Positions 4,530-53,600 of a DNA stretch of 54,328 nt are shown piece by piece. The notes under the pieces are model-generated. The model made no database searches and was not told the origin of the DNA. It saw nothing but the letters and a program-made list of their open reading frames with translations. Position 1 is the stretch's first letter; each line of letters opens with the position of its first letter. This DNA is from a virus. The position numbers and the translations under genes were made by a program. The DNA is taken from the IMG/VR virus record IMGVR_UViG_3300021602_000009, positions 1-54,328 of that record; one strand, 5' to 3'.

Positions 4530-5378
4530 TTATACACGTTGAGAACAGATATTGATATTATTGATAGGCGAAAATACACGGCTAATGGTATTAGTTGATA
4601 AATGCGTGTAAATCTGCGTGGTTTTTTGCGATTTATGTCCGGCAATTTTCTGCACCATAAATAAATCTGTACCCGCTTCGACCATATGCGTAAAAGCACA
4701 ATGCCGGAGTAAGTGCGGATAAATGCGTTTTTTGATATTTGCTTTACGTGCTAACTTTTTGAGCGTAGTACCCACACTTGTTTCGGAATACTGCGCGTCG
4801 AACTGACCATTTAAAACATAGATTTTGGATTTATATTCTTCCCAATATTTTTCGAGCAAAGGAATAATAATCTCCGGCAACATAACCTGGCGATCCTTTC
4901 CACCTTTGGCATCAATCACATTAATAATCATACGGCTGCGGTCTATGTTTTCCCATTTCAGGTTGAGCAGTTCCGAAATACGCAAACCAGTACTGTACAG
5001 CAACGACAATACAACTTTGTGCTTAGTATTATCGCACACGTCGAACAGCATCTGAATTTCCTCCTGGCTGAAAACAATGGGCAGTTTCGTACTTTTACGC
5101 GGATAAGGTACGTTATCCAGTTTCCGCGGTTGGTGCCCAACTTCATTGTAGAAAAACTTTATAGCACACAATGCAGCCCGGTGCGAAGCTGAATTTTTAA
5201 TCTGTAACAAATAACTTTCAATCTGTTTCGCTGATATTTCGGAGGGTTTTGTAGCTGCCTTTTCGTGATACTTCAAAAACTTATCAATTTGCGCCACATA
5301 ACTTTCCTCTGTATTATGCGAATACTTCCGAAGCTGTATTGCTTTGGAAAGTTGGTTTAAATAGTTTCCGATATTCAT
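4530..5378 (-). CDS. XerD/IntI-like tyrosine recombinase beside the cassette array
   Basis: A 282-aa tyrosine recombinase. Residues 1-95 form the SAM-like core-binding domain; the catalytic domain shows Arg133 (STGLRISELL), Lys161 (GGKDRQV), His222 and Arg225 (YPHLLRHC), His248 (AGHKSQKTT) and the nucleophile Tyr257 (IYTHLS), so all key residues are present. The C-terminal tail after the tyrosine (RVFSPINN) recalls the SPLD tail of integron integrases and their relatives. It lacks the extra helical insertion that defines canonical IntI: the stretch between Lys161 and His222 is of Xer length. The start codon is 53 bases from the first GTTAGGTG core site of the cassette array, which mimics an intI-attI layout. 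It may serve the cassettes, another inversion or resolution reaction, or be a chance neighbour. Confidence 0.85.
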   Translation of the reverse strand: MNIGNYLNQLSKAIQLRKYSHNTEESYVAQIDKFLKYHEKAATKPSEISAKQIESYLLQIKNSASHRAALCAIKFFYNEVGHQPRKLDNVPYPRKSTKLPIVFSQEEIQMLFDVCDNTKHKVVLSLLYSTGLRISELLNLKWENIDRSRMIINVIDAKGGKDRQVMLPEIIIPLLEKYWEEYKSKIYVLNGQFDAQYSETSVGTTLKKLARKANIKKRIYPHLLRHCAFTHMVEAGTDLFMVQKIAGHKSQKTTQIYTHLSTNTISRVFSPINNINICSQRV

Positions 5379-17909: not shown

Positions 17910-18073
17910 AAAATTGGAAAACATCACTCGTAGGACTTGCAATCATTATTGCAGGTATCGTAGTTTTCATTCGGACGAATGACTACACGCAGGCAGGAGC
18001 TGCCATATTGGTTGGCACAGGGTTCTTATTTTCTAAAGATAACAATGTGACCGGAGGCACTAAAGCAGTATGA
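17906..18073 (+). CDS. Small holin-like membrane protein
   Basis: A 55-aa protein. It starts MKNWKTSLVGLAIIIAGIVV and has two hydrophobic stretches (residues 8-23 and 32-45: AGAAILVGTGFLFSK) separated by a polar turn, ending in a polar tail. Both ends overlap neighbours: its ATG overlaps the stop of the gene before (ATGA), and its stop overlaps the endolysin start (ATGA). Translational coupling and position make it the best holin candidate, the protein that opens the inner membrane to time lysis. Holins share little sequence, so the call rests on context. Confidence 0.65.
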   Translation: MKNWKTSLVGLAIIIAGIVVFIRTNDYTQAGAAILVGTGFLFSKDNNVTGGTKAV

Positions 18074-18525
18074 GCAAAATAGACACACTTCACCCGCTGA
18101 TCCGTGAAGAAGTCAGGGCATTGGTAAATAAAATCAATACCGAAATTCTGAAAAGTAACGTGAAAATGGTAGTTACTCAGGGTTTACGCACATTTGCTGA
18201 GCAGGATGCACTATATAAACAAGTTCCGAAAGTAACCAACGCCAAAGGTGGTCAATCAATCCACAACTATGGACTTGCTTTTGATTTTTGCTTAGCTGAA
18301 GCCGGAAAAACTATTTGGGACGTGGCCAAAGATTTTGACGGTGATAAGGTGGCTGACTGGATGGAAGTGGTAAAGGTTTTTAAAGATGCCGGTTATACCT
18401 GGGGTGGAGATTTCCGAAGCATACATGATGCTCCGCATTTCGAAAAAACATTTGGCCATACATGGCAGCAGCTCCTTGAGATTAAAAACGCAGGTAAAAC
18501 CGAAAACGGATATGTGGTATTATGA
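18070..18525 (+). CDS. Endolysin, M15-family L-alanyl-D-glutamate peptidase
   Basis: A 151-aa peptidase of the VanY/CwlK type that cuts the peptide part of peptidoglycan. The zinc and catalytic motifs are visible: QSIHNYGLAFDF (His and Asp of SxHxxGxAxD, around residues 64-74), YTWGGDF, and DAPHFE with the second zinc His. There is no signal peptide, so it needs the holin to reach the wall. Length fits phage enzymes that lack a separate wall-binding domain. Its start overlaps the stop of the holin-like gene. Confidence 0.9.
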   Translation: MSKIDTLHPLIREEVRALVNKINTEILKSNVKMVVTQGLRTFAEQDALYKQVPKVTNAKGGQSIHNYGLAFDFCLAEAGKTIWDVAKDFDGDKVADWMEVVKVFKDAGYTWGGDFRSIHDAPHFEKTFGHTWQQLLEIKNAGKTENGYVVL

Positions 18526-18571: not shown

Positions 18572-19177
18572 ATGGGTATGATACAACTAATTAAAGCATT
18601 TTGGAAGCCGGTACTTGTGCTACTGGTGGTAATAATATTGTCAGATTGGATTTGGAATAATTATAATAAACCTAATCCACCAACCACCGGCAAAACATAT
18701 ACTCAGGCTGACATTGAAAATGCCAAAGCCCGCGTAATTGATTCTATTTACGATGAAGTGGATTATGACAGCATTGCCATATTTCAGGCTGGAAAGGATG
18801 CTAAAGCTGCCGAATCTATAGCGTTACGATCCAGGGAACAATCTTATAAAAAAGGTTATGAACGGTGGAAGCATATAACGGATAGTTTGCTACTGGTGAC
18901 TAAAATAGACAGTGGTTGTAAAAAGATAGTAAAATCACAACAAAATCAGATTGATTCGCTGAATGGTGTTGTTGAAACTGTAGGACAGGAAGCCGAGAAT
19001 TACTCACGTAGATTGTATTTTTCGGAAAAGCAAAACGAGAAAAAAGATAGTATTATTACCCGAAGAGATAAAACCATTGATAGGATTGAAAATGAACGAT
19101 CCGATAATCAGTGCTATAAAAACTGGTTTGATAGCCGACCTTTTTGGAAGTGGGTGCATAATCCGAAATGCAGGTAA
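18572..19177 (+). CDS. Spanin-like membrane-anchored protein
   Basis: A 201-aa protein with one N-terminal membrane segment (residues 13-28, VLVLLVVIILSDWIW) and a long charged, helical periplasmic part (residues 50-180), including the coiled-coil stretch DSLNGVVETVGQEAEN. This layout is that of inner-membrane spanins, which link the inner to the outer membrane and complete lysis. It follows the endolysin gene. No outer-membrane lipoprotein partner was found inside or overlapping it, so the function stays provisional. Confidence 0.6.
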   Translation: MGMIQLIKAFWKPVLVLLVVIILSDWIWNNYNKPNPPTTGKTYTQADIENAKARVIDSIYDEVDYDSIAIFQAGKDAKAAESIALRSREQSYKKGYERWKHITDSLLLVTKIDSGCKKIVKSQQNQIDSLNGVVETVGQEAENYSRRLYFSEKQNEKKDSIITRRDKTIDRIENERSDNQCYKNWFDSRPFWKWVHNPKCR

Positions 19178-19227: not shown

Positions 19228-19261
19228 ATTTACGAAGGAATGAGATATGAGTATTTAATAA

Positions 19262-19573
19262 GATAAACAGGTTCGTTGAAATTTTAGAGAAAGTTTGTTT
19301 GGACAGGGGTTCGACTCCCCTCACTTCCACATCATGCCAGTTACATGTTAGCTAACCCGTCGCTTTAGTACGGTGCTAAACTCACTCAAATTGCCTTTAG
19401 ATAGTATCGAAAAGGATTTCGAAAGTTTAGCAAACCGGGGGTGTTTGGTTTTGACAGCAGATAAGTAGATTTAATGGAGAACTTGCAAGCCAATAAACGG
19501 CAAAACAATCAGAATGTTTAACCCATCACTAAGAGTGGCGGTATAACAGCCCGCAGGGAGCTAAATCCCTGCA
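19262..19573 (+). ncRNA. ssrA: Candidate circularly permuted tmRNA (two-piece ssrA)
   Basis: The 3' half of a tmRNA lies upstream of its 5' half. The acceptor segment has a P2 strand (CAGGTTC 19268-19274, AAATTT 19279-19284), T-arm AGGGG-TTCGACT-CCCCT (19305-19321) and acceptor strand CACTTCC (19322-19328) with discriminator A; CCA is not encoded. After a 107-base intervening segment the 5' half begins GGGGGTG (19437-19443), which pairs with CACTTCC over seven positions (two G-U), followed by the D-arm-like TTTGGTTTTGACAGC. Its AGATTT (19467-19472) and GAACTTG (19479-19485) pair with the two P2 strands upstream. A tag frame from GGC 19499 reads GKTIRMFNPSLRVAV then TAA (19544-19546); a 7-bp hairpin follows (19553-19572). 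tmRNA rescues stalled ribosomes. A frame starting at GCC 19489 ends earlier and is an alternative. Confidence 0.72.
19330..19436 (+). other. Intervening segment of the permuted tmRNA
   Basis: These 107 bases join the mature 3' end to the mature 5' end and should be cut out by RNase processing. They contain two hairpins: GTTAGC/GCTAAAC with inner CCGT/ACGG (about 19347-19381), and TCGAAA/TTTCGA with loop AGGA (about 19407-19422). No gene is seen here. Confidence 0.6.
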
Positions 19574-19624
19574 TTGTTTGAAGAATTTTAAAACAAAAAT
19601 ATAAACCAATTAAAAAACACGAGT

Positions 19625-20059
19625 ATGATACACTTTTTTCAAAACGCAAATGCGTGGGTGATAGGCGAAACCCCGATGTCGTTTGTACCAATTGCAGCCT
19701 ATTTTATGGAAAACTCTGACAACGTAGTGCAGAGTGTGAATCTCATTCCGATGAGTAAGAATTCGAATTTGCCAACATTTAGTGCTGTAAAAATTTCAAG
19801 CATTGCAAAAAATGAAGATGGCGAACTGTACGAAAGCGTAGCAGAATTTGCAACCGCAGTAGCCGGTTATTTTGCCACTTCTACCAATCCGGCTTACGTG
19901 AAAGGTAATCCGTTCACGTATGCTGATTTTACGGAAGAGCAATTGGCAGCATTGAAAGGTGAACCAGGATTATTTTCAGTAGCAATTCCATGGTGTGATG
20001 ATTTTAATGCACTACAAGCTGCTCTTATTGAAGCAGGATTAATGCAAGTAGAAGAATAA
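19625..20059 (+). CDS. Hypothetical phage structural-type protein
   Basis: A 144-aa acidic protein. The N-terminus is hydrophobic but without a clear signal peptide (MIHFFQNANAWVIGETPMSF). Residues 108-120 (FTYADFTEEQLAALKG) match a motif common in tail-fibre and baseplate proteins of phages, in which it precedes collagen-like repeats; here only the motif is present. It lies directly behind the tmRNA and before a strong terminator, at the end of the lysis block. A tail-fibre accessory role is possible but not shown. Confidence 0.55.
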   Translation: MIHFFQNANAWVIGETPMSFVPIAAYFMENSDNVVQSVNLIPMSKNSNLPTFSAVKISSIAKNEDGELYESVAEFATAVAGYFATSTNPAYVKGNPFTYADFTEEQLAALKGEPGLFSVAIPWCDDFNALQAALIEAGLMQVEE

Positions 20060-20097: not shown

Positions 20098-20134
20098 GGA
20101 AGCTCTCGTTGTGATAACGCGAGCTTTCTTTTTT
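20098..20134 (+). terminator. Rho-independent terminator before terL
   Basis: A stem of GAAGCTC-T-CGTT with AACG-C-GAGCTTTC (one mismatch, loop GTGAT) is followed by TTTTTT. It shows that the reading frame upstream of the terL ATG at 20180 is not translated. Confidence 0.8.
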
Positions 20135-20135
20135 A

Positions 20136-20164
20136 GACCCCCTCTAACTCCCCCAAGGGGGAGG
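20136..20164 (+). repeat. Palindromic repeat, family C (CCCCCT-AGGGGG type)
   Basis: ACCCCCTCTAACTCCCCCAAGGGGGAGG, with related copies at about 13160-13181, 13305-13327, 22282-22304 and 44304-44333. Confidence 0.7.
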
Positions 20165-20179
20165 ATAAGAAAAATAAGA

Positions 20180-22279
20180 ATGAACATTGAGCAGATAATA
20201 ATAGAAAATGCGAAACGTAATGCTGCTAAGAAGCACGATTACGATCCGGTGTCGGGATTGAACTGTTACGGTGAGCGATTTGTGCTTACGGTACCGGAGA
20301 AGAACCCGCGCACATTTTATTTGCCTATAGAAATGAAAAACCTGAAAGCAGTAAAACTACTTCAAAAGCACGGAAGCATAACTGCAACGCTGAGAGCGCA
20401 ATTTAATAACCAAAAACCCAATCAGGCGCAAATAGATTACTTCTGGATGAAGATTTGCGAAGAACGTTATACATACGATTTTGAATTTTTCGCCATATCC
20501 TGCGTAACCATACGCGATAAAGAAACAGCCGATACTATAAAACTACAGCTCAACCCGGCACAGCGCATGTTGCTGGAAGTATTCGAAGATCAGCGTAAAG
20601 CAGGCATACAAATAACGGTGCAAGTACTCAAAGCCAAGCAAATGGGATTCAGTACGCTGACGCAAATGTATATGAAGTGGATTCAGATAATACACAAGCT
20701 CAACTGGAACAGCGTAGTGTGCGCTCATACCCGCGATGCAGCCATTAATGTGCGAAGTATGTATCAACGTTCCATTGACAGCATGATGGCTATAAACGGG
20801 CAGAAAATAAGCATGAAGGGATTCGGTACCACGCAGAACATGAAAGAAGTGCCGGAGCGAGGTTGTTTGATTACCGTAGGATTTGCCACCGAGCCTGACA
20901 GTGTGCGAAGTCAGGACGTGAAGATGGTGCATTTTTCGGAAGAAGCCTTTTATCCTTCCACTGACAATAATAACCCCGAACTATTAGAAGCAGGTATAAT
21001 ATCATCTTCAACAACAGGACCGTTTACAATGATAGTGCGCGAAAGTACGGCCAATGGAGTGGGGGATTTCTTTTACGAGCAATGGCAGAAAGCCAAGAAA
21101 CAAGAAACAGCCTTTGAACCGGTATTCGCACCCTGGTTTATGATACGGTTATACGAAACACAATTCGACGGCAGCTATTACCTACACAATGGCCGAAAGA
21201 AAAAAGGAACAGTAGCCGATTTTGTTGGTACGCTGGACGAATACGAGTGGAATTTGTGGAATAACCATACCAAAGATAAAATTTGTACGCTGGAGAACCT
21301 GAACTGGCGCAGAATGAAAGCAGCGACCATGCCGAGCGAAAGCAAAATGAAGCAGGAATACCCAAGCGACGATATAGAAGCATTTCAGGACAGCGGAAGC
21401 CCGGTATTTAAAGCCGAAGATGTGGAAGCTATGCGCCCTGATTGCCGATTGCCCGATGTGGTTGGAACACTTGCTTCACTTTGTCCACCCGAACTAGCAC
21501 TGACCGAACCACACCGCCGGAGCGAAATACTCAAAGAGTTGCGGTTTGTGAAAGACGAAGCAGCCACCGAAGCCGTATTGCACGGAGACGCTAAACAACG
21601 CCTGAACCGTGGAATAAACAAACTGCATGTGTGGGAAATGCCCGACAAAGAAATAAAAATAAGTAACCGGTACCTGGTAGTATTCGATCCACAGAAAGGA
21701 GTGAGCGAAAGTGCCGACTACGGAGTTATAAAAGTATTGGACCGTTACTGGATGATGTATGGCGAAAAGCCTGAAATAGTAGCCATGTTTTACGGACACA
21801 TTGATAAGGACGTGACAATATGGATAGCTGCACAAATTGCCAAGTGGTATAATAACGCCTTGTTGGTGGTAGAAAGTAATACCTACGATAGCGACAACAA
21901 AGAAGATCAGACCGAATATATATTTGAAACTATAAAAGAGTATTACGACAATCTGTATAGCCGTACCCCAGCCGAAAAAGTACGCGAAGGAGCACCAATA
22001 CGTTACGGATTCAATACCAACCGAAGTACGAAACCCATGATAATAGCCAATTTTAAAGCTATACTTCGCGAACAGGGATATATAGAACGTGACGAGGAAA
22101 CGCTAAACGAAGCACGAGTGTACGAAGAAAAGAAAGACGGAACTACAGGAGCCAAGCATGGCAAACATGATGACCGGTTGATGGCAACAATGATTTTGAT
22201 TACTATCTGTTTTCAAATGCCAATACCTGCGGAAATAAAAGCAGCTCAGACCGGACATGTGAAGCGGACAGCGTGGTAA
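20180..22279 (+). CDS. terL: Terminase large subunit
   Basis: A 699-aa DNA-packaging motor. The ATPase part has a Walker A-like loop in the variant form KAKQMGFSTLTQ (residues about 157-168) and Walker B with catalytic Glu in DVKMVHFSEEAF (about 250). The nuclease part has acidic residues in LVVFDPQKGVSESADYG (about 498), VVESNTYDSD (about 570) and GKHDDRLMAT (about 665), the usual RNase H-like set that cuts concatemers. The start at 20180 is chosen because 69 upstream codons-bases of open frame overlap a terminator and a palindromic repeat. It stands apart from portal, which lies 11 kb downstream. Confidence 0.9.
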   Translation: MNIEQIIIENAKRNAAKKHDYDPVSGLNCYGERFVLTVPEKNPRTFYLPIEMKNLKAVKLLQKHGSITATLRAQFNNQKPNQAQIDYFWMKICEERYTYDFEFFAISCVTIRDKETADTIKLQLNPAQRMLLEVFEDQRKAGIQITVQVLKAKQMGFSTLTQMYMKWIQIIHKLNWNSVVCAHTRDAAINVRSMYQRSIDSMMAINGQKISMKGFGTTQNMKEVPERGCLITVGFATEPDSVRSQDVKMVHFSEEAFYPSTDNNNPELLEAGIISSSTTGPFTMIVRESTANGVGDFFYEQWQKAKKQETAFEPVFAPWFMIRLYETQFDGSYYLHNGRKKKGTVADFVGTLDEYEWNLWNNHTKDKICTLENLNWRRMKAATMPSESKMKQEYPSDDIEAFQDSGSPVFKAEDVEAMRPDCRLPDVVGTLASLCPPELALTEPHRRSEILKELRFVKDEAATEAVLHGDAKQRLNRGINKLHVWEMPDKEIKISNRYLVVFDPQKGVSESADYGVIKVLDRYWMMYGEKPEIVAMFYGHIDKDVTIWIAAQIAKWYNNALLVVESNTYDSDNKEDQTEYIFETIKEYYDNLYSRTPAEKVREGAPIRYGFNTNRSTKPMIIANFKAILREQGYIERDEETLNEARVYEEKKDGTTGAKHGKHDDRLMATMILITICFQMPIPAEIKAAQTGHVKRTAW

Positions 22280-22638: not shown

Positions 22639-23910
22639 TCATGCTTTTTTCGTGGGTTTTTTATTCAGCAGGAAATCAATCACTTTCCGATTAGCTTCCG
22701 AAACCTTGTTGATATTGACTTTTGTGTTGCGGTTGGTATAAATTCCAGCCATGCCGGGAGTGGTTCGACCTTGCGCTAAATCAATAATAGGATCGGGAAC
22801 GTCGAGTTCTCCGGCAATGGTAGCCCACGAATGCCGTGCCCAATAACACGAAACAAAAGAAAGTACCAGTTTCAGGTTATCATTCATGCGCCGTTGTAGG
22901 TTGCGGTAATCGTCGGTGGTATAAGTATCGAGGAACGAAAGCAGGTATTTTTTACCCGGATAACGTTTGATAATTTCCATAGCTTCCGGTTCGATACGGA
23001 TAATAACCGGTTCGTTAGTTTTATCGCGCATAATCGAAAGCTGATCATTCCGAATATCCGCACGGGTAAGAAACAAAATATCCTTCACATTCATTCCACA
23101 CAGGAAAAAGGACAAGAAAAACAAATCAATGTATTTTTTCACGTCAGGAAATTCGGAAGTATGTTTTTTGCTCATTTCCTTTAGTTCAGCCTTGAATACA
23201 TCCATGTCGAGATTATACATGTATTGCAGGTCCTTAATCGTAACGTTTCGATGTTTGGTTTTGCTGCGCTTGATTTTAAACCTGCGGAACGGATAAAGGT
23301 CATACCCAATTAAATCGTGGTCAATAGCATCATTAAAAATAGTACGGATAGCGCGCATGTACACGCCACGTCCATTTACGCTCATTCCTGTTGATTCGCA
23401 GTAAGTATCAAAGTCTTTGAGCCAACCCACAGTAATGTCGGAAATATAAAATGTTTCCAAATTGACAAACGCACCCACTTTGACCAGCATTTGCGTATAT
23501 TGTGAGCGGGAAGAAGAAGCACGAAACTTAGCAGCGTAATTGTTGGTATAGGTTGAGAAATGCAGTTTCCTGCGCTCGTCCTTATCTAATTCCTCGTAAC
23601 CTTCGTCGCCAGATTCAATAAAGCGTTTTATTTCGGTGCCGGTTTTGAATTTAGTACGAAGTAAGCCACGCAGTTGCAAATCCTCCAGTACATTTTGTGT
23701 GTATGCCAATTTGTCGGCCACTACGTTATTCATCATCACCACACGAGGAACGCCCACAATTTTTCCAGATACAAAGTTTTCTTTTGGAACTTCAATACCG
23801 GTAGCAACATAAAATGCTTGTCGGTGAAAATTGAAGCGTATTTTCACCGGATATTTTCCGTTTGCTTTTTCTCGTCGTGATTCCAGCACGACCGTTATTT
23901 TCATATCCAT
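22639..23910 (-). CDS. int: Phage integrase (tyrosine recombinase, arm-domain type)
   Basis: A 423-aa integrase from the ATG at 23910 (461 aa if translation starts at 24024). It has an N-terminal arm-binding domain (MKITVVLESRREKANGKYPV), a SAM-like core-binding domain (about residues 115-215) and a catalytic domain. The first Arg is replaced, as often in Bacteroidetes integrases (FLCGMNVKDILFL), the His-x-x-Arg box is partly degenerate (YWARHSWATIAGE) and Tyr lies in MAGIYTNRN. The extra 38 N-terminal codons are repeat-like and overlap probable arm sites, so the shorter start is preferred. The tRNA-Pro-derived attP core lies 190 bases upstream of the start, the usual layout for phage integration. 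Confidence 0.85.
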   Translation of the reverse strand: MDMKITVVLESRREKANGKYPVKIRFNFHRQAFYVATGIEVPKENFVSGKIVGVPRVVMMNNVVADKLAYTQNVLEDLQLRGLLRTKFKTGTEIKRFIESGDEGYEELDKDERRKLHFSTYTNNYAAKFRASSSRSQYTQMLVKVGAFVNLETFYISDITVGWLKDFDTYCESTGMSVNGRGVYMRAIRTIFNDAIDHDLIGYDLYPFRRFKIKRSKTKHRNVTIKDLQYMYNLDMDVFKAELKEMSKKHTSEFPDVKKYIDLFFLSFFLCGMNVKDILFLTRADIRNDQLSIMRDKTNEPVIIRIEPEAMEIIKRYPGKKYLLSFLDTYTTDDYRNLQRRMNDNLKLVLSFVSCYWARHSWATIAGELDVPDPIIDLAQGRTTPGMAGIYTNRNTKVNINKVSEANRKVIDFLLNKKPTKKA

Positions 23911-24257
23911 GTGATTGTGGTTTGTTTGAAAATTGTACAAAACATTTGACGCATTGTGTCGCAAAGTTTCGTGTTTTTGCACATTGTATTGAAAATTGTT
24001 TGAAAATGGCTTTTTAGTAGACATAAAAAAAGTGATTTAGAGTTGCACATTAAAAAATGTAATCAACTGAAAATCACTTATAAAAGTATTCTTTTTTGTT
24101 TTGTCGGGGTAGCGGGATTCGAACCCACGACCCCCTGCTCCCAAAGCGAAAAACAACAAAGTTTTTATGTTGATTATCAGTTGTATATGTTTGTGGCGTG
24201 TGTGATTTTCAATAAACTGTACAATACACAGTGTGTGTTTTGAAAATAGATTGAAAA
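23911..24257. promoter_or_regulatory. attP: attP region with repeated arm-type motifs
   Basis: The tRNA-derived core (24103-24148) is flanked by copies of a TTGAAAAT-like motif: GTTTGAAAATTG near 23925, TTGAAAATTG and TTTGAAAATGG near 23985-24006, CTGAAAATC near 24067, the inverted form GATTTTCAAT near 24207, and TTGAAAATAG with TTGAAAATC near 24238-24257. Such repeats are likely arm sites for the integrase. Confidence 0.55.
24103..24148 (-). other. attP core: 3' part of tRNA-Pro(TGG)
   Basis: Read on the minus strand the 46 bases run from the anticodon loop (CTTTGGGA, anticodon TGG) through the variable loop and T-arm (GTGGG-TTCGAAT-CCCGC) to the acceptor end TACCCCGAC. No 5' half is present, so this is not a tRNA gene but the identity block that restores the host tRNA-Pro gene after integration. 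Confidence 0.85.
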
Positions 24258-33291: not shown

Positions 33292-35358
33292 ATGCCCACG
33301 AACAAACGAACCATAGAGATATACCGCAGGAAGTACGGTAAAACAGCAACAGAAGCGCGAAACAAACAGCGCACGAGCAGCAGTTACGGAGACAGTATGG
33401 CACGAAAACCCAACTTGTTGATGTCAGCTTACAATTGCTGGAACAGTATGAGCGATTTACGCACACAGATGCGCCGGAACGAAGAGTTTGTATATGGGGA
33501 CCAATGGAGCGACCGGGTATATGACCAGAAAAATAAACGCTCCGTAACCGAGCGAACCTTACTCACCGAACAAGGACTGCAACCCAGCCAGTACAACATT
33601 ATCCGCAATGTGCTGCGTACCACATCAGGTATATGGAGCAACAACAAAGTGCTTCCGGTAGTAGTGGCACAAAAAGATGAAAACCAAACAGAAAGCGAAG
33701 TACTGACAGCTACTTTACACACCATATTTCGCAAAGACGAATTGTGGAAACTCTTTGTCAGCCAAGTAACACAACTTCAGATAACAGGCATATCCGCCGT
33801 AAAATCACATTGGGCAAACCGGGACGGACAAAGCGACCTGGCAAACGATTACGTTGATCCTTTCGCATTTTTCGTGGATAACACGATGAAAGACCCACGC
33901 TACAAAGACTGTTCGATAGTTGGTTGCTATTGGGATTTGAGCATTGACGACATTGTGGGACTGTTCAGCAACGGAAACAAAGAACGTGCAGCCATTATAC
34001 GTTCCATTTATTCCGGCATAAAAGACGAAGATCGTTTATACTCAATGGTGCAGACCTTCACCGACCAGCGGATGGAGAAAGATTTTCTGGTACCGGGAGT
34101 AGAAGCGTATGGATTAGGACGGGTGATTGAAGTATGGCGCAAAGAAAGTGCCGAATGTTTCTGGATTCACGATTACCTGAGTGGAGAATATTACCCGGAC
34201 TTTGACGTAACCGAAAGCGAACTCAAACAGATACTTGCCCAGCGCAAAGCCGAACAGGCAGCAATGGGAGTAATGCCCGAAGATATGATGCTGATAGATT
34301 GGGAATGGGGTACAAGTAACTACTGGAAGTATTATTACCTCACACCGGTAGGCGAAGTGCTGAAAGAAGGTAAAAACCCATTCTGGCACGAAAAACCCCC
34401 TTTCACCTTTGAACTGCATGATTTTTATGTAGGTAAAATTTATCCATTCGTGAAAGATCTGATTGATACGCAGAAACAAATCAACAAGTTATCGGCCATA
34501 TCCGAATTGTTGTCGAAATTCTCCGCTAAGTCGCTGATGTTTATGCCAACGGATCAGATTGATGATGAGAACGGTTACGGACTGGATTATATTGAGGATA
34601 AAATGACTGATTACGATGCAGTGATTCCTTACAAACCCAAAGCGGGAGTTTCGGGTCCAAATTATGTGAACACCGTGGCGCAGGCATTTACTCCGCTAAA
34701 CGTGGTAAACATGTACCTGAAACTAAGCGAAAACGTTTCGGGCGTATTTGGAGCATTGCAAGGCGCACAACCCACCGCGGGAACTCCGGCACAGATGTAT
34801 GCACAGCAAAGCCAAAATTCAGCCGTAAGCCTTACAGGATTATTTGAGAGCGTAAACAGTTTCTTTAAACGGGTAGCAACCATGAACGTGCAACTTATGC
34901 AGCAATTCTACACGGATAAACGCTATGTATTCGATCAGAAATCAGGGAAGCGATTATTGTGGGACCCTGAACGGGTAAAGAACGTGGAGCATGAAGTAAC
35001 AGTAGGCGAACAAACCGATACACCCGCTTACCGATTGATGGTGAATGATCTGTTATTCCAGCTCAAACAATACGACACAACGAATATGCTTGATTTGCGG
35101 GGAATGATTGAAGCAGGTAATTTGCCGTTTAAGGAATCGTTGCTGAATTATCTGAACAAACGGGAGCAGGAAGTACAACAAGCACAACTACAAACCCCTC
35201 CCCCTGCGGGTACTCCCCTTCAAGGAATGGGAGATCAGGGAGGATTGCCAGCAGATTTACAACAACAATTGGGACAATATCAATTCTCGCCACAGCTGAT
35301 GGCACAGTTTGCTCAACTGCCACCGGAAGTGCAGAAACAGATAATTGAGGGGAATTAG
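33292..35358 (+). CDS. Portal protein
   Basis: A 688-aa portal of the P22/podovirus type, which forms the ring through which DNA enters and leaves the head. It shows the pattern of this family: WNSMSDLRTQMRRNEEFVYG DQW at residues 50-70, QYNIIRNVLRTTSGIWSNNK, VDPFAFFVDNTMKDPRYKDC, and a long helical C-terminal part from residue 480 rich in Gln (QAQLQTPPPAGTPLQGMGDQ). The last named stretch includes an in-frame copy of a palindromic repeat (CCCCTCCCCCTGCGGG). A size near 700 aa is usual. Confidence 0.85.
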   Translation: MPTNKRTIEIYRRKYGKTATEARNKQRTSSSYGDSMARKPNLLMSAYNCWNSMSDLRTQMRRNEEFVYGDQWSDRVYDQKNKRSVTERTLLTEQGLQPSQYNIIRNVLRTTSGIWSNNKVLPVVVAQKDENQTESEVLTATLHTIFRKDELWKLFVSQVTQLQITGISAVKSHWANRDGQSDLANDYVDPFAFFVDNTMKDPRYKDCSIVGCYWDLSIDDIVGLFSNGNKERAAIIRSIYSGIKDEDRLYSMVQTFTDQRMEKDFLVPGVEAYGLGRVIEVWRKESAECFWIHDYLSGEYYPDFDVTESELKQILAQRKAEQAAMGVMPEDMMLIDWEWGTSNYWKYYYLTPVGEVLKEGKNPFWHEKPPFTFELHDFYVGKIYPFVKDLIDTQKQINKLSAISELLSKFSAKSLMFMPTDQIDDENGYGLDYIEDKMTDYDAVIPYKPKAGVSGPNYVNTVAQAFTPLNVVNMYLKLSENVSGVFGALQGAQPTAGTPAQMYAQQSQNSAVSLTGLFESVNSFFKRVATMNVQLMQQFYTDKRYVFDQKSGKRLLWDPERVKNVEHEVTVGEQTDTPAYRLMVNDLLFQLKQYDTTNMLDLRGMIEAGNLPFKESLLNYLNKREQEVQQAQLQTPPPAGTPLQGMGDQGGLPADLQQQLGQYQFSPQLMAQFAQLPPEVQKQIIEGN
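35198..35222 (+). repeat. Palindromic repeat, family B (CCCCTCCCCCTGCGGG type), in frame in portal
   Basis: The copy encodes TPPPAGTPLQ in portal. Further copies are at about 40487-40530 and 40557-40590 (non-coding) and 44024-44052 (in frame in the giant gene, TPPPSGTPL). Confidence 0.75.
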
Positions 35359-41689: not shown

Positions 41690-44600
41690 ATGCCAACGAA
41701 CGACAAAGTACAAGCATTATACGACCAACTAACTACTGACGGTTACAATTTAGGTGATTACAATACATTTGCCACAAAGTTAGACAATCCTGAAAAAGTA
41801 AAATCACTTTATGAAGGAATAACCAAAGACGGCTATAATGTTGGTGATTTTGATACTTTCAGTTCAAAGATAGGAAGTGCGCCCATGACACGGCCACAAG
41901 AACAAAGCTACGCACTTACTCCCGAAATTAAACAAGGGATTGATATTGGCAATGGTGGAAGCGTGAAAGATGCACAGGGAAATGTATCGACACCATATCC
42001 AAGAAAAGGGACGATAGATTCAACTTCAATAAATACACCGAGCGTGGAAATTCCAGCAAGTGAACTTCCACAAGATAATAATCGAATTGTAATACCTACG
42101 CTTGATTATGGAGTTAAGCCATTACAAAACGATGCTATAAAACCATTACAGGATTACCAACCTATAAAACTTGCAACACAAAAAGAAGCAATTAATCCAA
42201 CCAATAACCCAAAAATAGACGTAAATAAACCTGCACAGGTAAAATCACGTAATTGGGATCAACGTATTTTGGACAGTGCAATACAATCAGTAAACTCATT
42301 AGGAGGTGGAGTTGAAGGCGCAATAGGTGATTATTATCAGAAGATGCAGGATATTTGGGGATTTGATTGGATGGGAAAACTTGCGGACAAATTTAGTTTA
42401 GCTTCAGCCGAAGTCAACGAAGGAGCAAAAGATTTCAAAAAAAACAATCCAGAAGAAGGACTTCCCGAAATGATTGGAGGTATTTTACCAATGGCAGCAG
42501 CTACAGTAGCCGATGTATATACCGGTGGAGCGTTAACCCCTGCCATAATGGGAACATTTGGAGTAAGTGGTTATGGTGATGGTATTCGGATGTATGACGA
42601 CATAAAATCAGCCAATGGCGAACAAGGAGACGATTTAGCGCGAACCGGTGCAGGATTAGGATATTCAGCCGTGATGCTGGGTACTATGAACGCACTCACT
42701 AAATTTGGAGTAGGAGGAGTTCAGAAACTTGCCAAAAGTGCAGTACTTCCCGAAATAATCAGCAATGTATTCAAATCAAGCCCTAAAGCCTTTGAAGGAG
42801 GAGCAAAAGAACTATTTGAAGCATACGCCAAAGCACAACCAAGTATTGCCGGTCAACTTTTGAAGAACGGAGTACACAGTGTAGCCACAATGGAAGGAAT
42901 GGAACTTTCAAAAATGGGAATTAATGCGCTTATCGGACAAAAACAAACCCTGAAAGACTGGACAAATACAGCCACAAGTGCTGCTGTTTCAGGACTTTTA
43001 TTTACAGCCGTTGCACCTTTCTCTATCAAATATGCCAACGATGCCAATTTAGCACGTATAATGGCACAGAAAGAAGTTACCATAGCAATGGACGGTAAGA
43101 ATCCGATAGAACTTATTCCAACCAAAAACGGAATGCAAGGACGTACACCGGACAATAAACTGGTAAAAGTAACACCGGAAATGGAAAACAATTCATTTAC
43201 CATTGAATCTAACCATTTTATTGATTTATTGAAGCAATTCAAACAAAGTAAAACGGTTGATCCAAACTTAGAACGCAATGTATTCTCCAATCGTGTAGCC
43301 GGAGTATTGAAAAACTTCATTACCGATAAAGGAAATATACAAGTTGCGGTAGATGAGCAGGGAAATAAACTATATATTTCGGGAAAAGACGAAAATGGCA
43401 ATTTGATTGGAGTAAATGGAAGTGGTGAAGTCCAGCCTATACCAGAAAATGCAAAGATTGAATCAGCACCAGTTGGAGATGTTCACGAATCCATAATGGC
43501 TGAATATGATAAGCAGCAGAAAAATGGGGACAAAAGGGACAACAGCGACGTTTTACAAAACGCATTGCCCGACGGTACTGATAATATGGAAAGTATAGTG
43601 AACCCCACTATACCCGAAGACATAGACCCTATCAATCCAACTTCGCATGTACAAGTTGGAATTGAAACCTTACAAACTCAACAGGCAATGGAAAAGGCGT
43701 TGGAAGGTATGGATTTTACTTTTGACCCGAAAGTGGCAGAATTAGACCCGCAAGAACAACACGCCATTTTATTACAAGTATTGGAAGATGAAAAACTGAG
43801 CGATGAACAAAAACAATCCATATCCGATTATTTAAACAGTGTTGCGGTAAGCAAACAGTTACATGCACAAAGGCAAATAGCCAGAAACAATCAACTACAG
43901 TTTGTCAATGATGAATTACGCGGTAGTGTAAATCAAAAGACCGGCACGTTGGTAAGAGCAAACATAAAAGGAGATGAAAATGCACAAAATGTGTTTGTAA
44001 CAGGTGGATTAGCCATAAAAACAACCCCTCCCCCTTCGGGTACTCCCCTTGAAACAAGTGGAGAATTGAGAGAGTTTGAAGTTGACCCTGAAAATTCTGA
44101 CGAAACAATTTTTTATAAAACCGGAAGAAAAAACGCTAACGGCACACCCGAAGTATTACCCACTACTATTGACAATTTGGAAGTAGTGGACCAATCTGAT
44201 TTAGAACAAACCATAAGCGAAACACAGGCAGCGTGGAATGACCATTTCCAAAAACAAGATAATGGAATAGATGCTGCGGTACAAGAATACTTTGCACCAA
44301 CGACCTCCCCTAACCCCTCCCAAGGAGGGGAACAAAACCAAGACCCATTGCAAGGAATTTCCAGCGGTGATACGGTGAACTACATTGATGATAATGGCGA
44401 CCAACAAAGCGGAATTATTCAGATTGATCCGGTATTAAGGCAAGAAGGGAAAGTATTTATTAATGATGAGGAGTGGCCGATGGAGAATGTGTTACCAAAA
44501 CAAAGCCAAGAGCCAAGTGCCAAGAGCCAAGATTCTGTGGACAATGGTGACGTTGCGGACAATAAGCAACAACCAACTTCACAATATCCCGAATTACAAG

Positions 44601-47600
44601 ATGGTACGCCTGATTTCAATAACATGACCGATGAACAGGTTATCAACTATACTCGTGAAACCAAAGGAGAAGAAGCAGCAAACGCCTTAGTTCAACGACA
44701 AGTAAAACGCCTACAAGGACAAATATCCGAAAATCAACGTGCTACAGCCAAGCACACCGAAGATACAAACAAACTACTTGCAAAGAGTAAAACAATGCAA
44801 GAGGACAACGCTATTGAAGCCAAACAAGCAGCCAAAGCTATAGCATTGAAAGAAGAATTTACTACTTTGAGTACTAAGTTAGCAGAAATGCAAACCTATT
44901 TACCGAAAGTAGAAGCACCTGCACCGGTTGAAACTCCACAACAAGCACCGAAATTACGCCCTGAAATTGCTCAACTGCAAAAAGAAGAAGCGGAACGGAA
45001 AGCGAAAGAAGAAGCAGTAAGCAGTAAGCAGTCAGCAGTCAGCAGTGAAGAACCAAAACCTATTGAAAGTGCAATAAATGATGAGAATCCAGCAATTTCA
45101 GGAGAAAAGAACAAAATAAATACCCCATTCCAACAACGCCAAAACAATTTGGGCGATTACGTTGACATGGAAGATTATATCCTTAGAGCAATAGCCGGAG
45201 GATTGAAATTCAAATGGAAAACGGACGGAGTAAAAAAAGGCATGGCCGATGAATTAGGATTTGGAGATAAAGTAGGAGAAAGACGAAATTATTTAAACCT
45301 GATTGACGAAAAGAACGGAATTACCCCACAAGACTTTGCTCACAACATTTGGAATGAGTATGGAGAAGATGGCAACGCAGGAGAAATACCCGGAGTTCGG
45401 AATATGACCGACCAGGACATACTGAATTTAGTGCATGATGTATTACGTGCTACCAAGAGCAATACAAGCGCATTGGAACAAGCCGAAGCCAAACGGAATA
45501 ATTTTGAACTAACCCCCGAAGATTACGGAATTTATGATAGCCTTACTCCACAAGAAATCAATTATCTGGAACAAATACCCGATGATATATTGGAATCTTA
45601 TTTGGGAATTACTAACTTTACGCCCGAACAATTAGATTATGTAACTAATTTACAAAACGAATATGGCAAAACTAACGACCAATCAGCGAATTCAAGCCCA
45701 AGTGAACGCAATCAAGGACTTGAGAGCGAAGAATCAATCCAATCTGGACAAAGCAATAGACAAGAGGTTGTCGAACAAAAATTCTTGACAGAAAAGGAGT
45801 TTATAAAACAATACCTTTTAGATTATATTGATAAAAACGGAATTTCAGAACAAGATTTTGAAGATTCAGATTCGTATGATGATATTTTCAACGAAGCATC
45901 TGACACTTATCCTGAATATATTACCGAACTTAAAAATACAGGTAAGCTGCAAGAATGGTTTGATAGCGCAAAATTGGGTGATAAAATTTCCATACGAAAA
46001 GGAACTGAAACAGCAGGTTTTGAAGTAAATGATTTTGTTGATACTAATAAAGAAAAAAACGATTCCAAAGCAAAGCGAGAAGAAGAAAAGAAAGCAGAAC
46101 AAGAAAGATTATTTAAAAGTATTGGGATTGATAAAAAGTCAAACAACCAACCTAAAGAACCAGTTTTATCTCAACCTCAACTCGATACCCAAGAACTCGA
46201 TACCTACATAGCCGAACAAGACCACAATACCAACCCTACTGACAAACAGAAGGAAACAGGCATTTACCCGAAAGCCCGTGTAAACCTACAGCACCACAAT
46301 ATAACCATTGAAACGCTGAAAGGTACCGAACGTTCAGGGATTGACGAAGGCGGTCAGAAATGGAGCGTAACCATGCAAAATCACTACGGTGAGTTAGATG
46401 GTACAGTTGGTTATGATAATGATCCGATTGATGTGTTTATTGGTCCGAATCCAAAACAAGGGGAAATCTTTGTTGTGGATCAGATTTTGCCCGATGGTTC
46501 ATTCGATGAATCAAAGGTAATGTTAGGTTTTGACAGTGCCGAAGAAGCCAAGGCAGCTTATATGAGTAATTATTCCGAAGGATGGGACGGTTTTGGCTCA
46601 ATTACTCCTGCCGGTGATAACTTCAAGGCATGGTTGTATGATGGCAAGAAACAAAAGAAACCTTTTGCAGAATATGTGGGGACACCGAAGGCGGTTGAAA
46701 CTTCCGGGGACAATGGAGATGTTGCAGACAATAAAACACAACTCACCCCTTCCGAACGTTACGACAATGCCACAACACCCGAAGAACGCCACGCGGCAGC
46801 GGTGGAGATAGTGCAAGCGTTGGAAAAGACCTTGCATGTAGGCACAACACCGGCACAGGTATTGAAAAGTACCGACGAGTTTATGTCAACGCTCAAAACG
46901 CATATATCCGATGCTGAATACCAAAAAGCAGAGCAATACCTTGCCAGCGGACAAAAATTAGCTGCGGTACGTTTAGGCGGAAAGATACTGATAAACATGG
47001 AGCATAACTTCGATGCCAAAGTATTGACCGAATCGTACATGCACGAAACAGCACACAAAGCCTTTGATGTAGCGTTTCGTGGTGAAGATTTAAGCAACCT
47101 CGACATACCAAACATTCAGGATTATATCCCTTCTGTATATTGGGGCGAAGATAACGCCATGAAAGCCACGGAAGTAGTAGCGCATTATGTAGAAGAATTA
47201 TTGAATAAATATACTCCAGAACAGATAAAAAATGGAGAAATAGACTTATCTTTGTTGAACGAAGATGTGCAATATATTGTTACCAAAACATTAAACAAAC
47301 TTACCAATGGAAAAATTGATAGTATCGGACAAGAACGGTTCAATGACCTTAGAAGTATATCCGCAAGTGATAGAGGAATACAAGCGGACGGACACAGCGG
47401 GAAAAACGATGTGGGAGAAACTGGAGATAGTAAACCAGATAACGGAAAGCCTGGGACTGAGCCAAGGTTCACCAACGGAAAAATAATATCCAAAACAAAA
47501 ACACCAATTGGAACGGAAGTAAAAGTAAAATATAAAACTCCAATAGGTGCAGAAACAAAGATATTCTATACCGATGGCGAAATACCAATGACGTTTAATA

Positions 47601-50600
47601 CAGAAGCGGACATTGACAAATTTAAAGAATCTTTAAGCGGACAAGTACAAAGTGAAATTAAGCCTGAAACCGAACGCGAAAGAATCCTACGTGAAAAGTT
47701 AGACAAACTTCGTGGTAAATTAGGAATCAATGAAAAACCGGAATATAAAATATCCGAACCTACAGGAAAACTCGATGATACTGGACAACTCGTTTCAGAC
47801 AACATATCAATCGGGAAAGACATCCCGCAAGGAGAAACCTTTGCAGAATGGCAAAAAAGCAAACTCCCTGAATGGACGGACTATGCGCTCCAAATAGTAA
47901 ATAAAGTAGCCAATAAGCAATATCTGGAACAAATGGATTTGCAGGATTTGGCAACCATTTACAATGCTGCGGTTAGAAATAATTATCAAGGGTGGGAACA
48001 AAGTGACATAAACGATGTTGTTTCTATACTTGTTCATAACAATATATTCAGGGTAAGAGATGAAGCAGAACGCAAAAGATATGAAAATATCTACCGTGCG
48101 ATTAAAAACCTTCAACCTGAATTCAAACGCCTTGACAGCGAAACAACCGATTTAGCCCTTGACATTACGGAAATGTTGTTTGAGGACGGTGATGTATCGT
48201 TCCCTGATTATTCGGCGCGGATGATTGAAGCCATGGGCGAAGGAATCAAACCGTATTTAAGCGGATTTTATGAACTTTCGAGAGTAAGCGTACCACAAGA
48301 AGGCATGACACCGGCTGCGGAAGTAGCCAATTTCGATATTAAAAACTTTAATCACAAAGAATATGTATCTAATCGACCAAGAAACAGCCAACCAAATAGC
48401 ACTCCAGCCAATGAAGTACGACCAGATGCAGACCTTATTCCAGTCAACGGAGCCGGAAGCGGAAGCATGGGAAGCAGAAGCCCGAAAAGTGGTGGAAAAA
48501 CAGTCGGACAGCCAAGTGGCAAGAGCCGTGGTGATTTACAGCCCACTTTATTTGGAGAACAAAGCGATAACGAATTATTGCCAACAGAATCCGCAGTTGA
48601 GAAACCAGCTACCGGAGATACTGACGGCAGAGGAAATGGCATTGATAGCCCAGAAAGACATCTTTTTGACGGAGGAACAAGTGAATCAGGTCATCAAGAT
48701 AACGTTGGATTACCAGAAACGTTTAAAGAGCGCACAGCCCGAAAAATAATAGAACAGCGAAACGCTGAATATATTCCGGTACAACTCATGGACGAAGCCA
48801 ACGTGCGTGAAACATTGCCGTTATTACTTCCCGAACAACAAGACGACGTATTAAAAGCCGAAAACCGTTTCTTTGGTGAGCAACACAAAACAAACGAAGC
48901 AGCGCACGGAAAAGGTATGTTATTTACCAATGGCACCGGCACCGGAAAAACCTACACCGGATTAGGCATTGCCAAACGCTTCGACAAGCAAGGAAAGAAA
49001 AACATACTTATTGTAGTACCCAGCGAAGCCAAAATAGGTGATTGGGTACAGGACGGTCAGAATATAGGACTATCCATTACTCCGCTTACTTCCACCAAAG
49101 ATGCCGGACAAAACGCAGTCATTACCACGTATGCCAATTTCAGAGCCAATGACGCGCTGAAGGATCGTGATTTTGATTTGGTCATGTACGACGAAAGCCA
49201 CCGATTGATGGAAGAAAAAAGCGGTGCCACTTCAAGTACCACCAATGCACACTACGGACATTCAAATGTATCGGAATGGCAAGCGTTTAACCGGTTACAA
49301 TCCATCAATCCGGCTTATCAGGAAATTGAAGCGTTGTATGAACAAATACGCACAGCAAGGGACAAAAGACCGTTGGAAGAAAAAGTACTTCAACTGCAAA
49401 AAGCCTATAATCAAAACGTAAAACTGGTATTACAGGAACGCGCCAAACGTGCTTATGAAAACACGAAAGTAGTATTTTTGAGTGCCACACCGTTCAAAGG
49501 ACATTTCAACCTGAAATATGCTAACGGTTCGCTGTTCGATTGGGGCAATGAAACCATTACCAACGGACGCGGCAGCCGTGTAAATCCAGAAGCACAATTC
49601 TATCTAAATAACTTTGGCAGTGCTTACGAATGGAAGTTCCATCGTTTGCAAAAGAAACAAAACTCCAATGCCGAAGCCGTGGCGATGCAGGAAATTGAAT
49701 TCTCACAGCGATTAATGGCACAAGGGGCAATGAGTGGCCGAGCAATTGAAAGCGATAAGGATTATTCGCGTGAATTCCCATTGGTAGCGTTGGACAAAGC
49801 CGAAGTATTTAATCAGGCATTAAACGAAATCTATTCGGACGAATTCGGAGAACTGAGCGAAGCAGCGCACAAAGTATTCAACGATTACAACTACACCACC
49901 AAGCTGTTTGAATCGCTCAAAGCATCTATGAACATACAGCGCATTCAGGATCATTTGGATTTAGGACGTAAAGTAATAGTTTTCCACCGCCGGAAGCAAG
50001 CCAATGTATTACCACCGTTTCAGTCGATATTAGACCAGACACGCCAATTGGCAGACCAATATGTTTCGGAAGCAGTAGAAACCAACGATATAGCCAAAAA
50101 GGCAGAGTTGATACACAAAGCCAATGAAATGCGGAAGAAGTCAGAACAGTTTGAAACAAAATACGCTGACTTACTGACATACGAACAAACATTGAACTAT
50201 GATCCGTCCATTACGCAGATAAACGAAGCATTCCCCGGACAAGTAGTAAGCATGAATGGTGATACGCCCAAAAAAGACAAATCGAAGAACGTAGCCCTGT
50301 TTAATGACGACAATTCGGGAAAGAACATTATCGTGGTACAGGAAGAAGCCGGAAAAGAAGGTATTTCGTTACACGATACGACAGGAAAACACCAGCGGGT
50401 ACTCATTAGTCTTTCGTTACCTATTTCGAGCACCACAGCCCTGCAAATTGAGGGACGGCCATATCGTATCGGTAATGAATCGGACGCAATCTTTGAATAT
50501 CCGTTGTTAGGATTAGATCAGGAAATATCCGATTTTGGACAGAAGATAAACAAAAAGCTATCCACTACCGAAAATTTAGCCATTGGCGATCAGGCGCGTG

Positions 50601-53600
50601 ATTTGTTGCGGTCGTTTGCCGAAGGCGTATTATTCAATTCAGGAACAGACGCACCGAACTTAAACCAGGGCAAAGGCGGAAAAGAATACGACAAGAAAGC
50701 ACAAGAAACCTTGTCGGAATTCCGCAAAGCCGTATTGGTTTACAATACCAACCAAAAAACCACCGGCAGACGTGACCAACGCGAAGGTACAGACTATTAT
50801 GCCACACCCGAACCGGTAGGACAAAAAATGGTTGATTGGTTAGGACTACAAGCCGGAGAAACAGCAATGGAACCAAGCGCAGGACACGGAGCAATAGCAA
50901 TGTGGTTTCCTGAAAAAGTAAACGTAACCGTAGTTGAGCCAAGTTATAAGCTATTCTCAAAACTGAATGCACGAGCAGGAGGAGGAGGTAGAAAGATGAT
51001 TAATGATATATTCGAGAATTTGAATGTAATCAATAAGTTCAACGGAGTAGCCATGAATCCACCGTTTGGAAGTGGCGGTAAAACAGCCGTGGAGCATGTG
51101 GCCAAAGCATTTGACCATTTACAGAACAACGGACGTATAGTAGCCATTATTCCACAAGGACAGGCCGATGGACGGTTGGACAAATTCCTTGAAGAAAACA
51201 ATAACGCTCACTTAGTAGCTTCGATAAAACTACCTTCAGTAACTTTTGAACAAGCCGGAACGAAAGTAGGGACACGCATTGTGGTGATTGATAGGATTGA
51301 TTTGCCAACGGAATACGCGGTAAGACAAGAAATAAGCAAAGAAGAAACCAACGACATTGTTTCAGGCAAAAGAATTGGTTTTATGTCAAAGGAAGAAAAG
51401 GCAGCAGCTATTGAAAAACGCATGAATGAAATTCGTGCTGAACTTCCACGGACACAGAATATGGATTTGTCGGGAGACAAAAACATTGATGAACTATTCA
51501 ATGAGATTGAGGATTTGAGCGTAGAGCCAAGACAAAACCCCTCCGCTTCGCTCGTCCCCTTAGAAAGGGGACAGTCGGAAGGAGAAGTTGTTGCGGAAAA
51601 TACGAACGAAGGTAAATTACTTCCGGTAGAAGAATTTGTGCATACTCAAACAGGACAAAAGCTGTACAACGTGAAGATAAACGGACGTAGTGACGATTAT
51701 ACCACTATGTCGGATATAGCTAAGAAATTCAATCCTTACAACGCTGGCCGTCCGTGGAATAAATTTTCGAAAGGATTTTTATTTGCTGACAGGAATGATG
51801 CGGTGAAGTTTAAGAATGAAGTGGAAGAAGTGAAGCCGGAATATAAACTTGTAGATGAGAATGATAAAAAGTCATTAAGTCCGTCAGAAAAAACACAAAA
51901 TAAAATTGATTCAAAGTTTCCAACGCCTGAATACAAAATTATAGGCGAAAAAGGCGCAGCTAACCTTGACAAAGCCGAAGAAGCTACTACCAGACTGGAT
52001 AATTTGAAGGTTGCAAGGGAAATGGAGAAAACATTTAACAAACAATCGGAAAAAGATATTAAAGATGGGTGGCTTAATGAAAACTATGCTTTTGTAAGAC
52101 AAACTAAAGATAATAAATTAATACGCCTTGCTACCGGTTGGGAAAAAGGAGTGGATGGATTGTGGAGGTATGAAGTTCCGGACGGAAAATTCTCAAAAAG
52201 AATGCTACAAGAGAAACATGATGGGCAAATGAAACTTTCCGAAGCATGGGAGGACGAACAACTGTTTAAGACATATCCACAATTGAAAGATATTGATGTT
52301 GATATGTTTGTTGGTCGTTTTGCAAAGAAAGGTGGAAGTTTTAATCCTGAAACTAATAAAATAATAATTGCTGCAAACGAAACAGAACAAGCACGTTCAA
52401 TAATGGTGCATGAGATTCAACATACCATACAGCACGAAGAAGGTTTTGCACAGGGTGGAAGTGTAGACATGTTTTCAAATTCAAGAAATAATACAAGAAG
52501 ATTATTTACTGATTTAGATGAAGCATTTGACAAATTAGGATATACTGAATGGCTTAAAAATGCGGACGATGACACGTTTAAGAAAATAATGTCAATTGAT
52601 AAGAATTTTGCAGGTATGTACGTTTTTGCCGAAACCCAAAGCGAAAACGTGAAAAGCAAAATGATTAAGAAATTAGATGAAGCTGATGCAGTAATCAAAG
52701 AAAACGATGCTATTTTTGGAAAACACGGTAGATATGCAGATATAAAAGATACACAACTATATCATAATCTTTCCGGTGAAGTAGAAGCTCGTAATGCTTC
52801 CACCCGAATGAACTTAACCCCTGAAGAACGCCAACAACGTTTACTCAGCGAAACAGCCGACGTAGCACCAGAAGAACAGATTGTATTAATGGACGGATTA
52901 GGAGTAAGCGAAAGCGTACCCGAAAAACCTGAATTTACACCCGAAAAACCCCTTCAACAATACGCCACGGAGATAAACGCTTATAATGAGAAGATAAAAG
53001 CCATTGAGGACCGGAAGCAGGAATTGAAGAAAAAGCGTGATGACAAGACAATAAGCAATGTGGACTTTGAGAAACAAGCACAGCAGTTGAATGTAGAGAA
53101 ATCGCATTTAGTAGAAAAGCTGAAAAGGATTGAAGCGGGGACGAGTAAGCCGGAGGACTTTGAAGAAGTAGGTAGTAGGCAGTCGGCAGTCGGTAGTGAA
53201 GAAAATACAACAGTAAGCAGTAATAAGCAAGCAGCAAGCAGTGAGGGAACAAAACCACCTACTCCACCAACCACAAGTAAGGCTACCAAATTGGCAGCGG
53301 AAGCCGGTGAGAATATATCGGAAAAGTTGCGGGACGAATTAGATTCAAAGATTGGTCGTGGCGAAGGTAAGTTGGCATTCCGTTTACAAGAAGCATATCA
53401 GGATCAGCATTTGGCAGTAAAAGAATTTCAGGAAGTATTGAAAAATAACGGAATGAAGATTACTCCAATGAATGACTGGTATATGCGTGTAACTGCATTG
53501 GGTGGAATGAATGACAGTCAGATGGATTATTACGAGCACCATTTCAATCTTCCTATTATGAAGGAAGTGAACCGCATGGAGAAAATATCTTCTTACCGTG

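Follow-up and report, generated by a model that had tools for sequence, protein, structure and literature searches.

Between an endolysin gene and the gene of the large terminase subunit, the window (the whole stretch of DNA analysed here, IMG/VR virus record IMGVR_UViG_3300021602_000009, 54,328 bp) harbours a circularly permuted tmRNA gene, in which the T-arm and the 3' acceptor strand are encoded upstream of the 5' acceptor strand. ARAGORN reports a single RNA gene in the window, a permuted tmRNA at 19240-19637 whose tag is GKTIRMFNPSLRVAV. In cmscan the Rfam family RF04321 (tmRNA_permuted) matches 19271-19546 with 54.9 bits (E 4.9e-8, cut-off 47) and is the sole family above its cut-off across the entire 54 kb; a relaxed Rfam search of the tmRNA region returned nothing named beyond tmRNA families and chance matches. 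A preliminary description, made without database searches, had read the segment as a phage-encoded circularly permuted tmRNA. This claim holds, the Rfam check and the permuted-mode ARAGORN check both being positive, and the acceptor, T-arm, P2 and D-region parts which it had named are all present at the positions listed here.

4530-5378, minus strand: tyrosine integrase
18070-18525, plus strand: M15 peptidase endolysin gene (Pfam PF13539, PHROG endolysin)
18572-19177: short hypothetical protein with a membrane-anchor-like start, upstream of the tmRNA
19265-19304, plus strand: part of the acceptor piece, comprising the 3'-side P2 strand and the linker as far as GGAC, pairing with 19467-19485
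19305-19321, plus strand: T-arm, AGGGG-TTCGACT-CCCCT, with the canonical T-loop TTCGACT (ARAGORN, RF04321 and sequence)
19322-19329, plus strand: 3' acceptor strand CACTTCC (19322-19328), then discriminator A19329; 7/7 pairing with 19437-19443
19330-19436, plus strand: intervening segment (spacer) between the two pieces, 107 nt
19351-19373, plus strand: conserved element of the intervening segment, consensus GCTAACCCGTCGCGTTAGTACGG, window copy GCTAACCCGTCGCTTTAGTACGG; present in 21 genes
19374-19432, plus strand: second hairpin of the intervening segment, TGCTAAACT...AGTTTAGCA; compensatory change in the related contig L057, absent from some family members
19437-19458, plus strand: 5' acceptor strand GGGGGTG (19437-19443) and D region TTTGGTTTTGACAGC (19444-19458)
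19467-19485, plus strand: 5'-side P2 strands, with a pairing preference for their own partners
19499-19546, plus strand: tag frame GKTIRMFNPSLRVAV and stop (ARAGORN); open tag in 21/21 members
19553-19572, plus strand: 3' hairpin GCAGGGA/TCCCTGC; compensatory changes in L057
19625-20059: hypothetical protein, downstream of the tmRNA
20111-22279, plus strand: terminase large subunit gene, true start probably the ATG at 20180
22639-24024, minus strand: tyrosine integrase, 3 kb from the tmRNA
24107-24145, minus strand: att-like remnant next to the preceding integrase, consisting of the 3' part of a tRNA gene that by eye resembles tRNA-Pro
33292-35358: P22-type portal
41690-54328: giant open frame (4,213 codons or more) that is still open at the end of the record

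Two of the seven acceptor pairs are G-U, one of them being G3-U70. G3-U70 is the AlaRS determinant. No CCA is encoded after A19329. P2 is made up of CAGGTTC (19268-19274) pairing with GAACTTG (19479-19485) and of AAATTT (19279-19284) pairing with AGATTT (19467-19472). The gap from P2 to the tag amounts to only about 13 nt and no clear pseudoknot PK1 was seen on inspection of the sequence. The predicted cut points, A19329 and G19437, agree with the cuts that had been postulated, an agreement inferred from the sequence without any RNA data. What the preliminary description had overlooked is the conserved RNA element within the 107-nt intervening segment, which is common to 21 genes. The hairpin at 19553-19572 is likely to represent the end of the coding piece or a terminator. 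Folding of the single sequence was uninformative (z -1.48; acceptor stem not recovered), and no SmpB gene was found in the window.

Genomic surroundings of the gene

Judged by its gene content, the window is likely a temperate tailed phage. The tRNA-gene remnant at 24107-24145 probably constitutes its attachment site, and ssrA is therefore not the attachment site; the refutation which had been put forward, namely that the segment merely mirrors a host ssrA integration site, thus fails. For the stretch from 41.7 to 54.3 kb, stop-codon recoding was considered and ruled out, as this stretch is a single frame under table 11. A further frame, at 15-2339, has matches to large polyvalent/DarB-like families and could possibly form one gene with the frame at 41690-54328 if the genome is circular. 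A palindromic CCCCCTCTAACTCCCCCAAGGGGGAG element at 20135-20165 overlaps the listed start of the terminase gene, and is also found just upstream of the tmRNA in L057 (91.7% over 48 nt). In the Bacteroides phages PQ571277, PQ571269 and PQ571263 the terminase homologue is annotated as "tail spike protein", probably a misannotation.

A related phage (L043, portal 53% identical at the amino acid level) does not carry its tmRNA before the terminase; there, the flanking genes are homologues of those at 39968 and 40534 in the window. Other family members described below adjoin helicase-, methylase-, KilA-N-, tail- or lysis-like genes as judged by eye. For eight terminase relatives (59-71% amino acid identity) no tmRNA above the cut-off is present in the fetched DNA or, where searched, in the whole records; the tmRNA gene is therefore dispensable. 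From the variety of neighbours together with the relatives lacking the gene we conclude that it is a movable accessory rather than a fixed part of a module. A role late in infection, as suggested for a copy placed with the lysis genes, is conjectural; relatives have quite different neighbour genes.

A family of permuted genes

Viral contigs were scanned with the 5' signature GTGTTTGGTTTTGACAG and with a motif recurring in several spacers, which yielded 19 relatives of the window gene, and genome contigs provided one more (L057). With the window gene included, the family comprises at least 21 phage-type permuted tmRNA genes. The window, L057 and 14 of the 19 spacer-element-bearing viral relatives score above the RF04321 cut-off; ARAGORN overlooks about half of the family and RF04321 about a quarter.

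The acceptor helix which spans the spacer forms 7/7 pairs in all 21 members, and the T-arm adjoins the 3' acceptor strand in every one of them, though it was not included in the acceptor search criteria. Acceptor positions 5 to 7 change jointly (GTG/CAC, ATG/CAT, CTG/CAG, CGG/CCG, GAG/CTC, AAG/CTT). Covariation was evaluated in an alignment of 19 rows (A1) with 500 shuffles and slid registers as controls. Paired cells account for 99.0% of this alignment compared to a shuffled mean of 85.4; double-sided changes are seen in 46 cells compared to 10.7, and the covariation score is 0.347 compared to 0.079; none of the 500 shuffles reaches these values and all slid registers collapse. The acceptor strands 19322-19328/19437-19443 are paired in 100% of cells in the 19 sequences with two pairs double-changed, all five T-stem pairs covary, and G3-U70 is an invariant U-G in 19/19 (columns 25/54), from which charging is inferred. 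For P2, the duplex of each strand with its own partner has a mean of -16.7 kcal/mol versus -13.5 kcal/mol for swapped partners (20 members, Wilcoxon p 5e-5), and L057 shows the compensatory change from GAACTTG/CAGGTTC to GAATTTA/TAAGTTC. The covariation over 19 aligned sequences and the own-partner preference of P2 exclude a chance origin of the arrangement.

An open tag frame of 9-15 residues is present in 21/21 members, with G or D as first codon and A or V at the end; the tags terminate in -VAV, -AVA, -MAV or -LAA. It has to be mentioned that an A or V at the end had been required by the filter; in nearly all members a single frame qualified.

Some further genes were encountered during the scans. 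On the reverse strand of L024, at about 1104-1484, a permuted tmRNA with the tag GARTEMAIAA lies within a cluster of 11 tRNA genes; it carries a CGCCAA-type hairpin after the acceptor and is without the spacer element. Eight viral contigs (L017, L019, L022, L025, L026, L030, L032, L033) contain one-piece-like tmRNA 5' ends of the GGGNGTGTTTGGTTTTGACAG type. Those which were read show unusual long tags, e.g. ...NVINFVPRASVRAYNQMAA, and several of the eight are overlooked by ARAGORN.

Spacer element and T-loop variant

The spacer varies from 45 to 308 nt over the family, the acceptor piece of L021 lying beyond a spacer of 308 nt. All 21 spacers contain a near-invariant element of 23-24 nt, whose consensus is GCTAACCCGTCGCGTTAGTACGG and which is conserved more strictly than the tag or P2. 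In two scans with the 23-nt form, all 18 matched loci turned out to be permuted tmRNA genes; a degenerate 24-nt scan was discarded as its matches were mostly due to chance. The last 23-nt scan left positions 8, 10, 11, 19, 20 and 22 free, and the five new members which it produced all retain the inner stem of the element as CGGT/ACCG (three), CGGC/GCCG or CAGT/ACTG. The window has CCGT/ACGG at this place, and L027, which possesses the 24-nt variant, CGGC/GCCG. Because compensatory changes preserve it in all five of these members and in L027, the inner stem, which covaries across the family, is RNA structure. The outer pairing CTAAC/GTTAG, with its last pair mismatched in 4/19, cannot be judged by covariation since it is almost invariant. 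Outer and inner stems are hard to build together as loops of 0 and 1 nt would result; a pseudoknot, alternative hairpins or a protein site each remain possible for the outer part. The second spacer hairpin changes in L057 from GCTAAAC/GTTTAGC to GCTTAAC/GTTAAGC, which is compensatory. A CGCCAA-loop hairpin directly after A19329 is suggestive in many members but was rejected as a family feature, being too weak in L036, L057, L068 and L069. The most likely role inferred for the element is to direct how the permuted precursor folds or is processed.

The T-loop motif TTCGA is regarded as universal. In L036, L037, L044, L069 and L070, however, it is replaced by GGC[AG]G (GGCRG), the T-stems being intact and covarying. 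The D region reads AG in 5/5 of these members versus GG in 16/16 canonical ones, an association with a probability of 1 in 20,349 by exact count if kinship is ignored. L066 and L069, as well as L023 and L070, have similar tags but different T-loops; the joint change therefore occurred, or was exchanged, more than once. Inferred from the sequences, the variant would fit an exchange of two tertiary contacts, 54-58 and 18-55, while 19-56 is retained, and the two loops appear to co-vary.

Origin, rival explanations and meaning

The pattern GGGNGTGTTTGGTTTTGACAG matched 16 stretches in 84,980 species genomes, all 16 in Bacteroidota; 14 of them are one-piece ssrA according to ARAGORN, one (L050) is uncalled and one, L057, is permuted. 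L057 is a contig of a Bacteroidales MAG and shares 85% identity with the window across 351 nt; the same MAG also contains a one-piece ssrA (151.5 bits) and is the only one of 148 Bacteroidota genomes to pass the RF04321 cut-off. The spacer element was not found in 394 other Bacteroidota genomes. Upstream of five members TAnnTTTG boxes of the Bacteroidota type occur (7 matches versus 1.04 expected); just upstream of the window's own copy there is none. The nearest annotated terminases are those of Bacteroides phages (36-37% amino acid identity), and a search for terminase-bearing prophages, which gave none at E <= 1e-30 in 395 Bacteroidota genomes, was uninformative as the set included no known match. 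Judged by these relatives, the host of the phage likely belongs to the Bacteroidota.

Permuted tmRNAs with spacer removal have been described in alpha- and betaproteobacteria and in cyanobacteria (PMC3968760, PMC11915505). With the lineages covered by RF04321 the phage family shares the gene order, the acceptor, T-arm and P2 pairing, G3-U70 and the tag frame, whereas it differs in its Bacteroidota-type 5' piece, in its spacer of 45-308 nt with a covarying element and, in some members, in the changed T-loop. The one-piece ssrA of Bacteroidota (Flavisolibacter, Paludibacteraceae) is identical in acceptor and D region over 22-24 nt and shares the T-arm flank TGTTTGGAC, yet it is not permuted and has the tags GNTQYAMAA or GNNTVALAA. 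The crAss-like phages Burzaovirus cr7_1 and cr124_1 (NC_055895, NC_055899) already have an annotated permuted tmRNA with the same GTGTTTGGTTTTGACAG block, but without the spacer element and with a different tag, DNVNNIVDYTNVA or GNVNNIVDYTNVA; the earlier statement that no standard permuted tmRNA is known from Bacteroidetes or their phages has to be corrected accordingly. Permuted tmRNAs are common in aquatic phages, and Methylophilales phage Melnitz as well as marine phages possess a two-piece ssrA (PMC9004378). Like the window gene these are complete permuted ssrA genes within a phage; unlike it they are of the alphaproteobacterial type, with control by a glutamine riboswitch reported (PMC9004378). 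The simplest reading of the sequence signatures is that the permutation arose on a Bacteroidota-type one-piece ssrA, is carried by phages and stands apart from the alphaproteobacterial, betaproteobacterial and cyanobacterial lineages. As the shared tRNA-like domain is short, there is no rooted, resolved tree behind this claim. For the spacer element, the T-loop variant and the Bacteroidota-phage lineage no report was found in the literature searched; the tmRNA database may list some members. What is new is the Bacteroidota-phage lineage with its spacer element, while permuted tmRNA in phages, including the crAss-like Burzaovirus, was already known.

Gene anatomy, covariation, intact tag frame and family are shown. 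That the gene encodes a functional two-piece tmRNA of a Bacteroidota phage, derived from a Bacteroidota-type one-piece ssrA lineage, is likely; transcription, cutting, charging, tagging and the role of the spacer are inferred from established tmRNA biology without RNA data. In a single precursor transcript, host RNase P would cleave in front of G19437, and the end at A19329 would be matured by RNase Z or exonucleases and by CCA addition. These steps would set free the 107-nt spacer, and the acceptor and P2 helices would keep the two pieces together. Alanine would be attached by host AlaRS via G3-U70, and host SmpB would deliver the RNA to stalled ribosomes, where GKTIRMFNPSLRVAV would be added and the ribosomes freed. 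The phage might gain extra rescue capacity, a tag of its own or resistance to the loss of host tmRNA, each of which is possible.

Transfer of the gene from one of the established permuted lineages (alphaproteobacterial, betaproteobacterial or cyanobacterial) with later acquisition of Bacteroidota-like letters could be supported by the abundance of permuted tmRNAs in aquatic phages (PMC9004378) and by the T-arm block of the window, which also matches the cyanophages S-CAM1 and S-CAM3. We consider it unlikely, however, as the 5' signature GGGNGTGTTTGGTTTTGACAG is present, among the genomes scanned, in those of Bacteroidota only, whereas cyanophage copies carry GGTTTCGAC and lack the element, the spacer of S-CAM1 comprising only 4 nt (TCAT). 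Similarly unlikely is a decoy whose tRNA-like domain titrates SmpB or AlaRS and thus blocks host trans-translation, the tag being irrelevant. Such a role has been proposed for phage DS6A (PMC4131195), and the altered T-loop of some members and the absence of SmpB from the window would be consistent with it. The DS6A-type tmRNA, however, is tRNA-like only and has no tag frame, while P2 is preserved and 21/21 members of the family retain an open tag with A or V as its last residue; the family thus does not correspond to that type.

Improbable, too, is the spacer as the main product, i.e. a small structured RNA with a role of its own released on cutting. In its favour, the 23-nt element is conserved more strictly than tag or P2 and has a covarying inner stem, and the window contains a second covarying spacer hairpin. 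Against it, the element occurs only between tmRNA pieces (18/18 loci of the 23-nt scans), and a role in processing fits equally well. A relic of host ssrA acquired at the integration site can be all but excluded. Genomic islands often attach at ssrA (PMC11915505) and an integrase gene lies 3 kb off, but the att-like remnant derives from a tRNA gene and not from ssrA, and the gene is permuted, complete and covarying while host copies are one-piece.

Beyond the preferred reading of a functional two-piece tmRNA, a bolder one is conceivable, though the balance tips slightly against it. It envisages a fourth two-piece tmRNA line, evolved in Bacteroidota phages, with a conserved functional spacer RNA (either acting in processing or folding, or released as a small RNA) and, in part of the line, co-evolution of T-loop GGCRG with the D-loop change from GG to AG, giving a tRNA-like elbow that lacks two of the usual contacts, U54-A58 and G18-psi55. 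A separate phage lineage with a strictly conserved spacer element allows asking how the permutation of a structured-RNA gene arises, how it persists and what the spacer does. The tags of the family permit testing whether phages redirect ribosome rescue, and the exchange in T-loop and D-loop is a natural experiment on the elbow contacts that are indispensable to a tRNA-like molecule.
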